Below are positions 5,380 through 12,982 of a DNA stretch of 64,000 nt, in pieces. Positions within the stretch are counted from its first letter, which is position 1. Each line of letters starts with the position of its first letter. A program made the translations under genes and the position numbers. The notes under the pieces were generated by a model, which saw only the letters and a list, made by a program, of their open reading frames with translations, was not told the DNA's origin and did no database searches. The stretch comes from Paracoccus lichenicola (GTDB taxonomy: Bacteria > Pseudomonadota > Alphaproteobacteria > Rhodobacterales > Rhodobacteraceae), in the NCBI RefSeq assembly GCF_009708075.1, contig NZ_WMBT01000003.1, forward strand, positions 1-64,000, written 5' to 3'.

Positions 5380-5631
5380 TCAAACCGGGATAGGCGGAGC
5401 CATAGCACGAACCTGAGGAAGCACTTCCAGCCATTCCGGCTTCATTGCCTTCCGTAGATTTGCCAGCTCAACATGTTCCTCGATGGTGCCTAGAACCTCA
5501 ACCATATGCTCTTGCAGGATGATGAGCATGCAGGCGTTCACCACCTTGAATTCCTCTGGGCAGGTTTCCAGCTGCCGCTTCATCCGCTCACGGGCGCGGC
5601 GCAGTTCCTTGATACGCTTGGTGTTGTTCAC
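5380..5631 (-). CDS. Small helical hypothetical protein
   Basis: The start codon is GTG at 5631, overlapping the stop of the XRE gene (GTGA), which implies translational coupling. The 83 residues are almost all helical and strongly charged at the N terminus (KRIKELRRARERMKRQLE), with a second helix carrying MLIILQEHMVEVLGTIEEHVEL. It could form a small coiled-coil bundle. Coupling with the regulator suggests a partner or antirepressor-type role, but there is no motif to support that. Confidence 0.6.
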   Translation of the reverse strand: MNNTKRIKELRRARERMKRQLETCPEEFKVVNACMLIILQEHMVEVLGTIEEHVELANLRKAMKPEWLEVLPQVRAMAPPIPV

Positions 5632-5852
5632 TTCCGAAGCCTCACCCCAGCCCCGCCGCCGTTCTCGGGGATGAACTCAACCCCCGCAGCTTCCAGGGCA
5701 GCACGAATGGCGTCAATCGCTTGAGGGGACACCACGCGCCGCTCCTTTTCGAAGTCGATGACAGTTGATTGGCCAAGGCCTGCTGCCTTTGCAAGCTCAG
5801 CCTGGGTTATTGATATGAGGCCCCGGGCAGCCCGCGACTGTGCTGGTGTCAT
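5628..5852 (-). CDS. XRE-family helix-turn-helix regulator
   Basis: The 74-residue protein is essentially one Cro/CI-type HTH domain. It starts SRAARGLISITQAELAKAAG, followed by the recognition helix region (GQSTVIDFEKERR) and the conserved tail VSPQAIDAIRAALEAAGVEFIP. The C-terminal GVEFIPENGGGAGVRL is common in small alphaproteobacterial XRE proteins. It is transcribed away from the rightward early genes, and two palindromes lie between its start and the divergent gene at 5935. It therefore probably controls both its own operon and the rightward genes, as phage repressors do. There is no LexA-type protease domain, so induction cannot be by simple self-cleavage. Confidence 0.85.
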   Translation of the reverse strand: MTPAQSRAARGLISITQAELAKAAGLGQSTVIDFEKERRVVSPQAIDAIRAALEAAGVEFIPENGGGAGVRLRK

Positions 5853-8118: not shown

Positions 8119-9675
8119 ATGAACGCTCGTGCCGAAACCATCCTCGGCTTCGCCAGCGGCTACGGCCAGAGCGATACCCATATTGCCACCCTGACCGATG
8201 GGCGCCCGAACCCATCATCGCAGGCAGGGCAGCCATATGAGCAAATCACTGGGAAGCAGATACTCGGAATGGTGAAGAACCCGCCTTCTGCTCCGAAGGA
8301 GAAAGCACGCTGGTTCATTCCGAGCACTTATTCTGCCTCCGATGCCCGCTCCCATGAAGCGCAGCGCCTAAAGGGGAATTTCTTCTGGCTGCCGCTTGAT
8401 GTCGATCAGAATAATCTCCCGCTGAGCGATATCTTTGGAGCAGTCCATGCAGTCCTGCCAGATAGCCATTGCATCATCTATTCCTCGCGTTCCGCGACTG
8501 AGGAAAATAGAAAATGGCGCGCGCTTGTCCCGCTGAGGGACACCATCCCTGGCTCAGATTACCCTGATACGTTGGCCGCCTTCTATGACCTTCTGGAAAC
8601 AGCAAGCGATGGCGCGCTGATACCAGATCGTGCCCTCGGTCGCCCTGGTCAGTTGGTCTATCTCCCGAACAAGGGACAGCATTACGAATTCCATATGCAT
8701 CGTGGCCAGGCCGTTGCCCTGACGCCGGATAATCCCGTTATCATCCGCCGTGAGGAGAACCGCGCCCGGTTAGAGGCTGCGCAGAAATTCGCGCGGAAAG
8801 AGCGCGAGCGTCGTCCAGTCCTTGGTGCCCAGGGATCCGACATCAGCCCGGTTGATCACTTCAACCAGAGCCACAATGTCGCCGACCTTCTTGCCCGCTA
8901 CAGATATAGTCAGGCGGGGCAGTCTCCGGACTGGCGCAGCCCCATGCAGACGTCAGGGAGCTATGCCACCAAGAACTTCGGCGACTACTGGGTAAGCTTG
9001 TCAGCGAGCGATGCGGCCGCCGGGATCGGTCGGGCCACGCCGGATGGTCACCGCTTCGGCGATGCCTTTGATCTGTATGTCCATCATGAGAAGGGCGGGG
9101 ATTTCACCAGCGCTGTCCGAGACTATGCGCACGAGGCGGGACTGCGGCCCCATCCGGAGCCCGCCGGTGCCGCCCAACCTCAGGACACTGAACCGGACAC
9201 CTCACCTGATGACGATGACGAACTGACGGACGAAGATGCTGCACCGGAAAAGCCGACCTCAGATTGGCCGTTCAAGGTCACAAAGAACGGTGTCTGGAAG
9301 CGCAGCGACAAGATGGACAAGGAAACCGGCAGGATCATCACCAAGTGGGTGCCGATCTGTTCAGAACTGCATGTCTTGGCGGAAACGCGTGATGCGGATG
9401 GCGAAGAATGGGGTCGGCTCCTTGATGTGGTAGACCGCGACGGCCGGCGCAAGCGCTGGGCGATGCCGATGGCGCTGATGGCGGGCGACGGCAGCGCCAT
9501 TCGTGATCGGCTCTATTCGCTTGGCCTTGTCCCATCACAGGCCAGAGATGCCCGGCAAGCGCTGCTCGAATACATCGGTTCTGCCCAGCCCGAACAGAAG
9601 ATGCGTTGCGTATCCCGTATCGGGTGGAGCGGCGGCGCCTTTGTCCTCCCTTCTCAAACCATCGGAACCTTCTGA
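8119..9675 (+). CDS. Primase-like replication protein carrying the first part of a DUF927 domain
   Basis: The ATG at 8119 has GGAGGAA upstream. The 518 residues fall in two parts. Residues about 40-215 resemble an archaeo-eukaryotic-type primase: a DxD pair at Asp94/Asp96 (WLPLDVDQNN), then IIYSSRSATEENRKWRALVPL and RPGQLVYLPN. After an acidic linker (about 345-375), residues 385-518 match the N-terminal half of DUF927 (VLAETRDADGEEWGRLL, RRKRWAMPMALMAGDG, CVSRIGWSGGAFVLPSQTIG). The frame then stops at TGA (9673-9675) in the middle of that domain. The rest of DUF927 continues in the +1 frame from 9676. The likely role is priming and origin opening for element replication. Confidence 0.75.
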   Translation: MNARAETILGFASGYGQSDTHIATLTDGRPNPSSQAGQPYEQITGKQILGMVKNPPSAPKEKARWFIPSTYSASDARSHEAQRLKGNFFWLPLDVDQNNLPLSDIFGAVHAVLPDSHCIIYSSRSATEENRKWRALVPLRDTIPGSDYPDTLAAFYDLLETASDGALIPDRALGRPGQLVYLPNKGQHYEFHMHRGQAVALTPDNPVIIRREENRARLEAAQKFARKERERRPVLGAQGSDISPVDHFNQSHNVADLLARYRYSQAGQSPDWRSPMQTSGSYATKNFGDYWVSLSASDAAAGIGRATPDGHRFGDAFDLYVHHEKGGDFTSAVRDYAHEAGLRPHPEPAGAAQPQDTEPDTSPDDDDELTDEDAAPEKPTSDWPFKVTKNGVWKRSDKMDKETGRIITKWVPICSELHVLAETRDADGEEWGRLLDVVDRDGRRKRWAMPMALMAGDGSAIRDRLYSLGLVPSQARDARQALLEYIGSAQPEQKMRCVSRIGWSGGAFVLPSQTIGTF

Positions 9676-9676
9676 C

Positions 9677-10996
9677 ATGAACGAACGCGTGATCTTTCAG
9701 AGCGCCGTCCCGCTCGACAATCCGTATCGCTGCGCCGGAACCTTGCAGACATGGCAGGCCGAAGTAGGCAAGAACGCCGTGGGCAACAGCCGGCTAATGC
9801 TTGCGCTCTCCGCTGCCTTCGCCGGTCCCCTGCTCCAGCCCCTCAGCGTCGAGGGTGGCGGCTTCCATTTCCGGGGCGGATCCAGCACCGGCAAGACAAC
9901 GGCCCTCCAGGTGGCAGGATCGGTCTGGGGAGGTGGCGGCATCAACGGCTATGTCGGCACGTGGCGCGCGACATCGAACGGGCTTGAAGGAATTGCCGCC
10001 CTGCATTGTGACACGCTTCTGTGCCTCGATGAGATTGGACAGATCGACGCTCGCGAGGCCGGCCAAGTCGCATACATGCTGTCCAACGGTCGGGGCAAAT
10101 CCCGCGCTGGTCGAGGGGGTGAGGCCCGGAAGTCATCAGAATGGCGCGTCCTGTTCTTGTCGTCGGGTGAAATCAGCTTGGCGCAGAAGATCGCAGAGGA
10201 CACCCGTAATCGCCGCGCCATGGCGGGACAGGAGGTGCGGATCGTCGACGTCACTGCCGATGCAGGGGCCGGGATGGGCATCTTCGAGGTGCTGCACGGC
10301 TTCCCCGGCCCTGATGCGTTCGCGCGTCATTTCAAGGCGGCAATCTCGAAGAACTACGGCCACGCCTCTATCGCATTCCTGACGAAGCTGGTTGAGGCTC
10401 CTACCAAGAATGTCGAACGCGCCGCAGTTCTGATGAAGGCCTTCCAAGAGCAGAATACTGTTTCGGGCGCGGATGGTCAGGTGTCCCGTGTTCTGGCCCG
10501 CTTCGCACTAGCAGCTGCGGCAGGTGAGCTCGCGCTGGAGTTCGGCATATTGCCATGGGCATCGGGTAATGCGTTCGACGCTGCTCGCAAGTGCTTTCGC
10601 GCCTGGATTGACGGACGTGGAGGCACCGAAGCTGCCGAGGATCGCGACGCCCTCACCACTGTGCGTCGCTTCCTGGAAGCACATGGCTCCAGTCGTTTCG
10701 AACTTATTCACGGCGAAGCACACGCTGGGACCGAGCAAGCCATCGATAGTCGCATCATCAATCGCGCTGGGTTTGTTCGCCATCAGGACGGTGAGCGAGA
10801 ATACATCTTCCTACCAGAGACCTGGAAAGACGTCTGTGCAGGAATGGATCCGGGCCGCGTGGCGAAGGTGCTTGTCGAGCGCGGATTTATGCTGACCGGG
10901 GGTGACGGCAAGCCTCAGGTCAAGCAGCGTCTTCCCGGAATTGCGAAGCCTGCACGCTGCTATGTCGTCTCATCGTCGATCCTGGCAGATGACTGA
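9677..10996 (+). CDS. DUF927 helicase-like ATPase, second part of a domain split by a frame change
   Basis: The only sensible independent start is the ATG at 9677, one base after the TGA of the previous gene; its ribosome-binding site is weak (CGGAA). The 439 residues begin NERVIFQSAVPLDNPYR, which normally follows directly on the FVLP.TIG motif that ends the upstream gene. Walker A is at 67-75 (GSSTGKTT) and Walker B at 113-119 (LLCLDE). It ends with a helical C-terminal domain containing FLEAHGSSRFE and INRAGFV. DUF927 proteins are ATPases of phages and integrative elements, usually fused to or beside primase domains. The split may be a restart, a +1 frameshift or a mutation. Confidence 0.75.
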   Translation: MNERVIFQSAVPLDNPYRCAGTLQTWQAEVGKNAVGNSRLMLALSAAFAGPLLQPLSVEGGGFHFRGGSSTGKTTALQVAGSVWGGGGINGYVGTWRATSNGLEGIAALHCDTLLCLDEIGQIDAREAGQVAYMLSNGRGKSRAGRGGEARKSSEWRVLFLSSGEISLAQKIAEDTRNRRAMAGQEVRIVDVTADAGAGMGIFEVLHGFPGPDAFARHFKAAISKNYGHASIAFLTKLVEAPTKNVERAAVLMKAFQEQNTVSGADGQVSRVLARFALAAAAGELALEFGILPWASGNAFDAARKCFRAWIDGRGGTEAAEDRDALTTVRRFLEAHGSSRFELIHGEAHAGTEQAIDSRIINRAGFVRHQDGEREYIFLPETWKDVCAGMDPGRVAKVLVERGFMLTGGDGKPQVKQRLPGIAKPARCYVVSSSILADD

Positions 10997-10999
10997 GCC

Positions 11000-11089
11000 T
11001 GTTCCCCTTGTTCCCCAAGCGCGAAAACTTGGGGAACAGAGATTTAGCTAACGTTTTCAAACCTGTTCCCCATGTTCCCCGTGTTCCCC
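11000..11089. repeat. Iteron cluster A, putative replication origin half
   Basis: The octamer TGTTCCCC occurs in direct orientation at 11000, 11009, 11064, 11073 and 11082 and inverted (GGGGAACA) at 11031. Neighbouring direct copies are exactly 9 bp apart. The copy at 11009 and the inverted copy form a perfect 11-bp inverted repeat (TGTTCCCCAAG, 11009-11019 with 11028-11038). A relatively AT-rich spacer (11039-11060) separates the two halves. The cluster starts four bases after the DUF927 stop codon. Cluster B at 12477-12567 repeats the same layout. Confidence 0.75.
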
Positions 11090-11116
11090 ACCAGAAACAC
11101 CTACCCGGAGATAGAA

Positions 11117-11488
11117 ATGCCCTTCAAAGCTCCCAGAATTTGCTCATGCGGCAAGGTCGTCCCCGCAGGTGTAAAATGCGAATGCCAGAAGGCCCGCAAG
11201 CGGGCGAGCGACAAGACATATGATGCCAAGCGGCCAAGTGCCCGCCAGCGGGGCTATGACAAGGCTTGGGAGAGGGCATCAAAGCTCTTCCTGTCCAGAC
11301 GGGAAAATCGGCGCTGTGTAGTATGCGGGGAGCCTGCAACCGTCGTTGATCACCGTATAGCATTCAAAGGGGACGACGCGCTTAGGATGGACCCAGCTAA
11401 CTGGCAGCCCATGTGCCGCCCTTGCAACTCGCGGAAGAACGTCCGCGCTGAAGGTGGTTTCGGCAGGCACCGGCGCGAAGACCAATAA
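11117..11488 (+). CDS. HNH endonuclease
   Basis: The ATG at 11117 has GGAG six bases upstream; the longer frame to the left is iteron DNA. The 123-residue protein has an N-terminal Cys-rich segment (ICSCGKVVPAGVKCEC, about 7-22). A basic region containing RQRGYDKAWERASKLFL follows, and then the HNH core: CVVCGEPATVVDH (His of the first H), AFKGDDALRMDPANWQ and MCRPCNSRKN. The two CxxC pairs bind structural zinc and the VDH...N...N/H residues form the nuclease site. In tailed phages such a gene normally lies next to the terminase and aids packaging; here no terminase follows before the tRNA. Confidence 0.85.
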   Translation: MPFKAPRICSCGKVVPAGVKCECQKARKRASDKTYDAKRPSARQRGYDKAWERASKLFLSRRENRRCVVCGEPATVVDHRIAFKGDDALRMDPANWQPMCRPCNSRKNVRAEGGFGRHRREDQ

Positions 11489-11705
11489 CTGCGGAGGCCT
11501 TCGGCTCTAGGGCCTTCCAAGCTGCAAGCCGTATACCGAGACCGTTTATCCTGTCCGATAAAATACCCGTCTCGGGCGAAAGGTCACGCTGCACTGGCAC
11601 TAGCAATCCTCATTGTTGAAAGGTCCGCCCGCTCTGGTCGGATGCCAGTTGTGGATCAGGTGCTTTAAAAGCAGCATCGCCGGTAGCATGCATATTGAGG
11701 ATGAG

Positions 11706-11972
11706 ATGACCGAACACTCTGATAACCCGAACATGGCTGCACGCTTCATGATCGATCAACAGATGATGGAAGCACTGCAAAAGTCAGTCGAACACGGTGC
11801 CACCGTATGGTTCGCCGCATTGAGGATGATGGAAGCAGGGACCATTCAGATGGTGGCAAACTTCGGCCCTGAATATACTGCCACGGTCCTCCGCGACATG
11901 CTGGCCAACATCGAGGCCGGAAAGTTGAACTACCGCGAAGGCAACTTCAGCTACGCACCACCCCCGCGCTGA
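11706..11972 (+). CDS. Small hypothetical phage protein
   Basis: The ATG at 11706 has TGAGG five bases upstream and is preferred to earlier in-frame ATGs. The 88 residues are helical (MIDQQMMEALQKSVEHGATVWFAALRMM and GPEYTATVLRDMLANIEAG) and Met-rich, ending in a Tyr/Pro tail. No known family was recognised. It lies between the HNH gene and iteron cluster B. Confidence 0.55.
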   Translation: MTEHSDNPNMAARFMIDQQMMEALQKSVEHGATVWFAALRMMEAGTIQMVANFGPEYTATVLRDMLANIEAGKLNYREGNFSYAPPPR

Positions 11973-12062
11973 GGGGCGCGGCGACCTCTTGGTGGGTGAG
12001 CCGATGGCCTTCCCCTGGTTATGCATGGCGCACCAGGCAATGGCACACCATGCAACGTAAGA

Positions 12063-12272
12063 TCACGGAAGCTGCGCCTTAGTGATCATTCGCTGGATTG
12101 CATCGACTGTCTCGTCAACGATGAACTGATGACCCTCAGTGCCTTTCAGCCCGGCCAGATGAACAGTCGTCTTCTCGCCAGTTAGATATGGCTCGAAAGC
12201 AACGATGTGGTTGATAGCGATTGTGATCGGAAAGGTTGTTCTGCCTGCATTCCGATTGAGCGTGATAAACAT
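12063..12272 (-). CDS. Small hypothetical protein, FlbD-like beta fold possible
   Basis: The 69-residue product starts at an ATG with GGAGA about six bases upstream on the minus strand. It reads as an alternating beta protein (MFITLNRNAGRTTFPITIAI, then HIVAFEPYLTGEKTTVHLAG) followed by FIVDETVDAIQRMI. That pattern resembles the small FlbD-type fold, where strands are followed by a short C-terminal helix, but no function follows from that. It is the only leftward gene in the right end of the element. Confidence 0.55.
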   Translation of the reverse strand: MFITLNRNAGRTTFPITIAINHIVAFEPYLTGEKTTVHLAGLKGTEGHQFIVDETVDAIQRMITKAQLP

Positions 12273-12906
12273 GGCGTCTCCGTAGTTCGTGCCGCCATGA
12301 CCATAGCGCAGGCCACCTTACCCGCAATCACCGAAACCCTGCAGGACATGCACCCCGCACCAGATGCAAGGGGGGGGGGTGGTCGTCAACTTTGCCCCTT
12401 TTTCGGGGACCAGTGCGGGGGGTTTCGCGCAAGATATGACCGAATTGGAGATTTTGGGAATGGGCTTTTGCTGCCCTGTTCCCCTTGTTCCCCAAGCCCT
12501 CGCGACATGGGGAACAGCGATTTCCTCAGTAAAATAAGGGGTGTTCCCCATGTTCCCCTTGTTCCCCGCAAAAAATGCGCTGCCCGACAAACAGAGACTT
12601 TGAATACCAGGGAACGAAGGCCGGAGAGAGCGCAGCTCAGGGCTGAAGGCTGCTGCCAACTTGGCGTCTCCGTGCCTGACGCAAGCACAACGAATCACCA
12701 GAATAATATAGGGCCGAAGAACCCTCTCTCTTGCATCTTCCGGGATGGAGCATGCTTTCTCGAAGCACCACTCCCCTCACCTTTCCGTGATAGCGAACGG
12801 TATAGAGCCTGGGTCTATCATGGTTCCGCCATGGTTCCACAACATCAGCAAAGCAAAAGGCCGCCCCGAAGGACAGCCATTTTTCTCAACATTTCCACTG
12901 TATTAG
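12273..12906. other. Non-coding right end of the element (634 bp)
   Basis: No convincing gene is seen here. The segment contains a run of ten G at 12370-12379, iteron cluster B (12477-12567) and a tandem 11-bp repeat CATGGTTCCRC at 12819-12840, about 65 bp from the tRNA. It ends at the tRNA-Thr CCA. An open frame from 12207 to 12971 runs through iterons and tRNA and is not considered real. Confidence 0.6.
12477..12567. repeat. Iteron cluster B, near copy of the layout of cluster A
   Basis: TGTTCCCC occurs at 12477, 12486, 12542, 12551 and 12560 in direct orientation and inverted at 12509. Offsets from the first copy are 0, 9, 32, 65, 74, 83; in cluster A they are 0, 9, 31, 64, 73, 82. The inverted pair here matches over nine bp. 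The spacer (12517-12540) is relatively AT-rich, as in cluster A. Similar architecture but different spacer sequence argues for selected protein-binding sites and not a recent plain duplication. Confidence 0.75.
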
Positions 12907-12982
12907 TGGTGCCGGTGAAGGGACTCGAACCCCCGACCCCATCATTACGAATGACGTGCTCTACCAGCTGAGCTACACCGGC
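12907..12982 (-). tRNA. tRNA-Thr (anticodon CGT), with encoded CCA
   Basis: On the minus strand the gene begins GCCGGTGTAGCTCAGCTGG and ends with CACCGGC, discriminator A and CCA (12907-12909). The acceptor arm GCCGGTG pairs with CACCGGC, the TpsiC arm contains GGTTCGAGTCC, and the anticodon loop is TTCGTAA. The anticodon CGT is at 12947-12949 on the plus strand (read as ACG) and decodes ACG threonine codons. The gene is intact. Its 3' end faces the prophage, so it is the likely integration site. Confidence 0.95.

Follow-up and report, generated by a model that had tools for sequence, protein, structure and literature searches.

The 64,000-nucleotide stretch of Paracoccus lichenicola DNA analysed here (contig NZ_WMBT01000003.1, positions 1 to 64,000; the window) contains two near-identical clusters of a short repeat, one directly 3' of a gene encoding a DUF927 helicase (9677-10996) and the other beyond a neighbouring HNH endonuclease gene. 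What are these clusters for, and which protein reads them? A preliminary description, made from the letters of the window, took them for a candidate bipartite replication origin. Our results make it very probable that they are origin iterons of an integrated phage-like element, which the helicase would bind via its C-terminal winged helix; binding and origin activity are what we infer from comparison. A replication origin is thereby proposed for a set of DUF927-encoding phage-like elements, and the comparison points to the domain most likely reading the iterons and nominates a residue that may set specificity.

Iteron clusters of an integrated element

The octamer TGTTCCCC matched exactly 12 times within the window, six times in cluster A, six times in cluster B, and nowhere else. 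The mean number of matches in 100 shuffles was 2.2 and the largest was 7, and in 20 simulated windows no octamer exceeded three copies per 95 bp, compared with six per cluster. Cluster A (11000-11089, plus strand) consists of two direct copies, one inverted copy, and three direct copies, starting at 11000, 11009, 11031 (inverted), 11064, 11073, and 11082 with gaps of 1, 14, 25, 1, and 1 bp. The order is the same in cluster B (12477-12567, plus strand), with starts at 12477, 12486, 12509 (inverted), 12542, 12551, and 12560 and gaps of 1, 15, 25, 1, and 1 bp. In both, the grammar is a direct pair, 14-15 bp, an inverted copy, a 25-bp spacer, and a direct triplet, with tandem copies 1 bp apart. 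The 25-bp spacer of A (11039-11063), a candidate unwinding element, had a GC content of 0.36 and that of B (12517-12541) 0.44, against 0.67 for the window. The HNH gene (11118-11488, plus strand; PF01844 E 5.1e-6; PHROG 144) lies between the clusters; its start was set by comparison with the Paracoccus relative L065, the list of open reading frames giving 11072. A scan of the window reproduced exactly the copy positions and offsets of the preliminary description. The rest of the layout that it reported was also found: differing but AT-rich spacers, an intervening HNH gene, and a cluster A whose first base is the fourth base past the DUF927 stop codon (10994-10996).

A third cluster, C, was identified in the same genome on another contig (C14:24327-24417), in mirror orientation to A and B. 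It begins 24 bp past the stop codon of an integrase gene (P0001; PHROG integrase E 7.5e-42). The window contains a tRNA-Thr gene (12907-12982, minus strand), and the 3' part of this gene (12907-12952, minus strand) is a 46-bp attachment (att) repeat identical to C14:22838-22883, beside the integrase gene. The integrase gene lies between this C14 att copy and cluster C, which are about 1.4 kb apart; in the window, B is about 340 bp and A 1.8 kb from the att repeat. An exact doublet of the iteron matched nine times genome-wide, always in clusters A, B, and C. Because C lies just 3' of the integrase gene and beside the 46-bp copy of the tRNA-Thr end, we assigned all three clusters to one integrated element. 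Its most likely order is att, integrase, C, contig gap, position 1 of the window onward, helicase, A, HNH, B, and att in tRNA-Thr. The window starts at a contig end, where a tail tape-measure-like gene is cut (2-1270; PHROG E 9.3e-27). Portal genes of the genome were found on C11 and C22, with a sub-cutoff match further along C33, and none was placed in the element. Judged from L065, this phage-like element is probably alphaproteobacterial.

Arrays and paired clusters in relatives

Related loci were collected by searching viral contigs with an alignment of nine helicases; 99 were confirmed and the best 80 were kept. A locus was scored as having an array when its best octamer had at least five copies within 400 bp after the helicase stop. 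This was so in 64 of these 80 best of 99 loci, and in 25 of 41 representatives below 90% identity. When 82-96 random 400-bp windows were drawn from each of these loci and scored, none reached the observed count in 62 of the 64; the exceptions were L198 (3/94) and L199 (2/93), and the corresponding value for the window itself was 2/100. Three loci that came from pattern searches were scored likewise. Eight copies were present in the 3' flank of L034. No array was found in the 400-bp helicase 3' flanks of L023 and L065, and the cluster of L023 lies beside its integrase gene.

Exact patterns had suggested that the clusters are rare: a search of the family for the exact architecture (1/295 genomes) and a search of the genus for the triplet (1/125) both recovered the own genome only. 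Exact patterns underestimate because the octamer differs between elements, and this apparent rarity was set aside. Triplet scans (11 viral stretches and 42 genome stretches) mix real arrays with what appear to be other repeats and were excluded from the counts. Arrays of TGTTCCCC in other layouts were seen on other contigs (L024, L032, L041, and L018); that of L032 (Ancylobacter) has an integrase gene as its neighbour, and a weak helicase match is encoded in L018.

Across elements, the grammar was kept and the word changed. The octamers included TGTTCCCC, TGTTACACC, TGTAGCACC, TGTACCACC, TGTTACCAC, TGTTCCCAC, TGTAACCAC, TGTAGCCAC, and others, mostly of the form TGTNNC. We scanned the contigs of 20 relatives (16 whole, four as 20-kb stretches) for pairs de novo, without a prior motif. 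On eleven contigs, the same word formed a cluster on the integrase side and a mirror-oriented one 3' of the helicase gene; in L260, the integrase-side cluster is about 1.2 kb downstream. L269 and L271 had a de novo pair with the second cluster elsewhere, and a scan with the known motif supplied the missing partner in L262 and L268. L264, L270, L272, L273, and L274 had one cluster of their own word, and no integrase match was found for L264 and L273 in a scan of the fetched contigs. The word was identical within the pair in 13 of 13 de novo pairs, though seven words occurred among them; in L257 and L260 it was picked one base out of register. De novo clusters that fit no iteron word of their own element were set aside (L255 at 5964, L258 at 15550, and L272 at 13557). 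Since two sites kilobases apart change together, they point to one trans-acting reader.

The internal spacing was also preserved. The gap next to the inverted copy on the side of the pair was 13-15 bp in 27 of 34 clusters (those of phage P4 excluded), and the inverted copy and the triplet were mostly about 25 or about 48 bp apart, the longer class sometimes with an extra one-mismatch copy inside. The two length classes, seen in L255-L271, are roughly two helical turns apart. Long spacers (41 of at least 18 bp) had a mean GC content of 0.44 against 0.63 for their loci, with a median percentile of 0.026; a few were not AT-rich. Viewed against these pairs, A and C are likely the conserved pair of the Paracoccus element. 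Cluster B could be another site on the helicase side, serve in control, or simply be redundant, and the HNH gene is probably incidental to the clusters. The two-site design of the bipartite origin first described is thus retained with other partners: the conserved partner of A is likely C, in mirror orientation and 3' of the integrase gene, not B.

The helicase, its winged helix, and the octamer

In Foldseek, the helicase model (predicted local distance difference test, pLDDT, 88) matched SCCmec Cch (5dgk, E 1.7e-15) and SaPIbov1 Rep (8tch, E 2.1e-14). Both aligned over almost the full length, with VIA Z of 27.1 and 25.2 over 368 and 343 residues and root-mean-square deviations (rmsd) of 4.0 and 3.5, respectively; MCM helicases ranked next, at Z 15 and below. 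Profile matches to 5dgk and 8tch gave E 2.8e-28 and 3.5e-30. The model therefore describes a helicase that appears to be an initiator of the SaPIbov1 Rep/Cch kind. Its C-terminal winged-helix domain (10628-10993, plus strand; separate model pLDDT 88.7) is the predicted iteron binder. Taken alone, this domain best matched residues 449-555 of 8tch (Z 11.2, 105 residues, rmsd 3.2), and it also matched Cch (5dgk, Z 8.8) and TcpK, either free (Z 10.6) or bound to oriT (Z 10.4).

The helicase is encoded by the second frame of a split gene (9677-10996, plus strand; PF06048 positions 125-282). This frame is open from 9503 and was read here from the ATG at 9677, so that the protein starts with MNERVIFQ. 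The first frame (8119-9675, plus strand) encodes a primase-like protein with PHROG DNA primase matches and the N-terminal part of DUF927 (PF06048 positions 1-131). PF06048 was detected in both frames, with E 4.5e-27 and 7.8e-53. We take GGSSTGKTT and LCLDE of the helicase to be its Walker A and B ATPase motifs, and the N-terminal part of the split gene presumably encodes a primase of the archaeo-eukaryotic type. The primase/DUF927 gene occupies two overlapping or abutting frames with the same split point in the window, in L065 (Paracoccus sp. IB05), and in L020/L157, and a single fused frame in L023 and L034. A programmed +1 frameshift was considered for the shared split point and rejected. 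The junctions differ, being TTCTGACATG (TGACATG) in the window, TTCTGATATG (TGATATG) in L065, and a stop-start overlap, ATGGGTGA, in L020, and stop-restart coupling is therefore more likely than a slippery site.

Which part of the helicase the octamer follows was most evident from L214 and L233. In their DNA, identity is 95-100% over a stretch that starts about 1.2 kb ahead of the helicase stop and ends about 400 bp ahead of it, falls to about 50-56% across the C-terminal domain and to 8-50% across the iteron region (gaps counted), and returns to 97-99% from 500 bp past the stop. The helicase cores are identical to rounding and the C-terminal domains 50% identical. By this alignment, the exchanged block is the C-terminal domain together with its iterons. 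Six pairs were compared, and this was the sole clean swap. L214/L190 dipped around the iterons with flanks of 0.8-0.9, L190/L189 and L158/L180 had no clear dip, and L187/L188 and L210/L192 diverged past the gene and stayed low to the end of the stretch. The 3' flanks of L187-L190, L214, and L216 contain 9-13 iterons in one array of about 170-250 bp, as if two clusters stood side by side. Such a single array may be why the winged helix and iterons of L214/L233 could be swapped as one block.

The same dependence was found statistically. With helicase distance held constant, octamer distance correlated with C-terminal-domain distance (partial r 0.195, permutation p 0.0075, 41 non-redundant loci); with the C-terminal domain held constant, it did not correlate with helicase distance (partial r -0.055, p 0.80, n = 41). 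These p-values are indicative because relatedness was controlled only by the helicase covariate. The 41 loci were obtained after motif anchors were set by hand in five (L156, L163, which was unchanged, L199, L222, and L233); the first run, without hand correction, gave a partial r of 0.134 (p 0.033, n 43). On 37 loci, left after L175, L176, L191, and L213 had been dropped for a motif other than TGTNNC, the values were 0.131 (p 0.032) for motif and winged helix and -0.068 (p 0.86) for motif and helicase. The alignment columns were ranked on the same 37 loci. Of 358 columns, the one that best predicted octamer bases 4-5 was helicase residue 416, the Lys of PQVKQRLPG. The C-terminal domain, with 107 of the 358 columns, contributed 13 of the top 20. 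Lys416 corresponds to Lys99 of the domain model, inside strand 97-100, which in this model can be read as the beta-wing.

These results suggested that the iteron word and the tip of the winged helix change together. Tentatively, and with chances that we put a little short of even, we propose an origin-specificity cassette of about 0.7-0.8 kb that can be swapped as a block. In it, the winged-helix tip and the iterons would evolve together like a lock and its key. The identity of a single beta-wing residue (Lys, Leu, Gln, Asn, or Val, among others) would help to set bases 4-5 of TGTNNC, so that co-resident elements can escape origin sharing. If this is true, sequence could be used to predict whether the origins of co-resident prophages and satellites are compatible, and the code that links initiator and iterons in helicases of this type would be open to direct tests with purified proteins.

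Proposed mechanism, competing explanations, and known systems

Here, we propose a model for initiation in the element. The DUF927 AAA+ helicase, acting together with the primase-like product of the frame just upstream, would bind TGTTCCCC via its winged helix, the beta-wing reading the bases. The direct repeats flanking the AT-rich spacer, together with the inverted repeat, would place opposed helicases, which would melt the spacer and load, so that replication of the excised element starts. The primase-like partner would prime replication of the excised circle. A and C would form a conserved two-site origin, comparable to ori and crr of phage P4, with B as an additional site.

The strongest alternative, although unlikely, is that the clusters are operators or control sites, to which a repressor binds or which keep replication in check by titrating or handcuffing the initiator. 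Iterons commonly serve in copy control as well, B is an extra copy, and a helix-turn-helix regulator, possibly the repressor of the element, is present (5628-5852, minus strand). However, A and C are both located 3' of genes, most clusters have AT-rich long spacers, and the octamer follows the winged helix of the helicase. For B this explanation may hold, because the binder would be the same and only the role would change.

We consider it very improbable that the clusters are accessory sites for the integrase or an excisionase. The positions of C, just 3' of the integrase gene and near one att copy, and of B, near the other, would suit such a role, but A is 1.8 kb from att, and among the 11 standard-pair relatives the integrase gene and the helicase-side cluster are 5.8-8.1 kb apart. 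In addition, the L214/L233 words changed along with the helicase C-terminal domain in a comparison of the helicase gene and its 3' flank. A role as pac/cos sites, at which the HNH endonuclease and terminase would act in packaging, is just as hard to reconcile with the relatives. A and B flank the HNH gene, the single cluster found in L273 is about 60 bp from an HNH gene, and some phages use HNH proteins for packaging. In 10 of the 11 standard-pair elements, however, 3.6-5.9 kb separate the HNH gene from the helicase-side cluster (L261 gave no HNH match), and the clusters stay beside the helicase and, except in L260, the integrase genes. A dispersed REP- or MITE-like repeat inserted more than once would account for near copies with differing spacers, but it is barely credible, as the exact doublet is confined to A, B, and C of one element and relatives keep the grammar with a word that differs between elements and is common within each.

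Several observations weigh against the origin reading itself. Sixteen of the 80 relatives lacked five copies in the 3' flank; seven of these, checked on fetched contigs, each had at least one cluster, mostly elsewhere in the element, the other nine being outside this check. The close relative L065, with an 83% identical helicase, has a cluster only at the B position, about 0.7 kb 3' of its HNH gene, and none at A. The preliminary description had looked to homologous replication genes for further clusters, and this expectation was borne out by 64 of 80 closer relatives but by only a few distant ones. Searches of the genus and the family for distant DUF927 loci gave 18 and 28 places; with the window's own excluded, 17 of 17 and 20 of 26 new ones were fetched, and 33 of these 37 had no array. 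With 4/37 passing, the rule applies to this clade but does not extend to DUF927 proteins as a whole. The helicase core holds seven of the top 20 alignment columns, among them ranks 2 and 4, and the covariation is a modest effect whose permutation tests control relatedness by a single covariate. The element is cut by the contig ends C14 and C33, and its gene content is seen in part. Finally, the two-frame DUF927 gene could be damage, in which case the element could be dead; a natural split is favoured because the same split point recurs in L065 and L157.

Two further observations concern DUF927 genes outside the clade. A second one in the own genome (L108, contig C20) is 31% identical and has no iteron array by the same test. 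In six distant loci (L094, L097, L098, L107, L146, and L148), TTGGACC recurs two to four times in the 300 bp 3' of the gene and may represent another iteron type.

Among known systems, SaPIbov1 Rep and SCCmec Cch, both self-loading initiator helicases with DUF927, are closest. The C-terminal domain of SaPI Rep recognises iterons directly downstream of its own gene, and Cch, which contains DUF927, is related to SaPIbov1 Rep (PMC7581432). The Paracoccus element shares the DUF927 MCM-like AAA+ helicase, the C-terminal winged helix, and iterons directly 3' of the gene. It differs in the primase-like partner upstream in a split gene, the grammar of two, inverted, and three copies, the two or three separate clusters with one beside the integrase gene, and the phage-like nature of the element. 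DUF927 ATPases joined to primases are predicted to be mobile-element helicases (PMC5862659). TcpK of plasmid pCW3, a winged helix of closely similar fold (Z 10.4-10.6), is described as reading nine-nucleotide tandem repeats, chiefly by its beta-wing in the major groove (PMC6137059); unlike the helicase, it is a stand-alone conjugation accessory protein. Gram-negative phage-inducible chromosomal islands share an integrase, a primase, and an ori downstream of the primase gene (PMC10111431). The window also has a tail tape-measure-like gene at its left edge, and the element, cut by contig ends, may be a whole prophage or a satellite. Matches to integrase, primase-helicase, portal, capsid, connector, and terminase were found on the 15-kb contig of the relative L157/L256. 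No published work describing these arrays was found by title or abstract opening, the subscription literature being mostly beyond reach.

In the P4 record, the type-1 repeat TGTTCACC stands at all six ori sites and is one base from TGTTCCCC, and crr lies directly 3' of the alpha gene, in agreement with the one-base difference and two-part ori/crr cited in the preliminary description. P4 ori consists of three direct copies, 14 bp, one inverted copy, 35 bp of GC 0.17, and two direct copies. Both systems have six sites, with a direct group, about 14 bp, an inverted copy, an AT-rich spacer, and a second direct group, and in each a pair of cis sites stands apart, of which one lies directly 3' of the initiator gene (here A plus C). 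They differ in that the inverted repeat adjoins the pair here and the triplet in P4, the tandem period is 9 here against 10-11 in P4 ori (9 in crr), and a third cluster is present here; the comparison covers P4 type-1 repeats, not the type-2 repeats of ori. A P4-alpha-like initiator found no support: hhalign of the helicase alignment against P4 alpha gave no match (probability 0.3%), although a miss against one sequence does not amount to proof. The origin-binding domain of P4 alpha was not among the winged-helix structure matches listed, an absence that proves nothing. Since the octamers differ by one base and the initiators show no similarity in the profile comparison, the element is described as working like P4 and is not classed with it; the parallel holds for layout and likely for mechanism. 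The clusters thus still look like cis sites of the element's own primase-helicase, as first suggested, with an initiator of the DUF927 type that is not detectably P4 alpha. The DUF927 proteins of L067-L072 start with a stretch like a zinc ribbon, which on visual inspection is similar to the beginning of P4 alpha, as though another helicase had acquired a primase of the P4 type.

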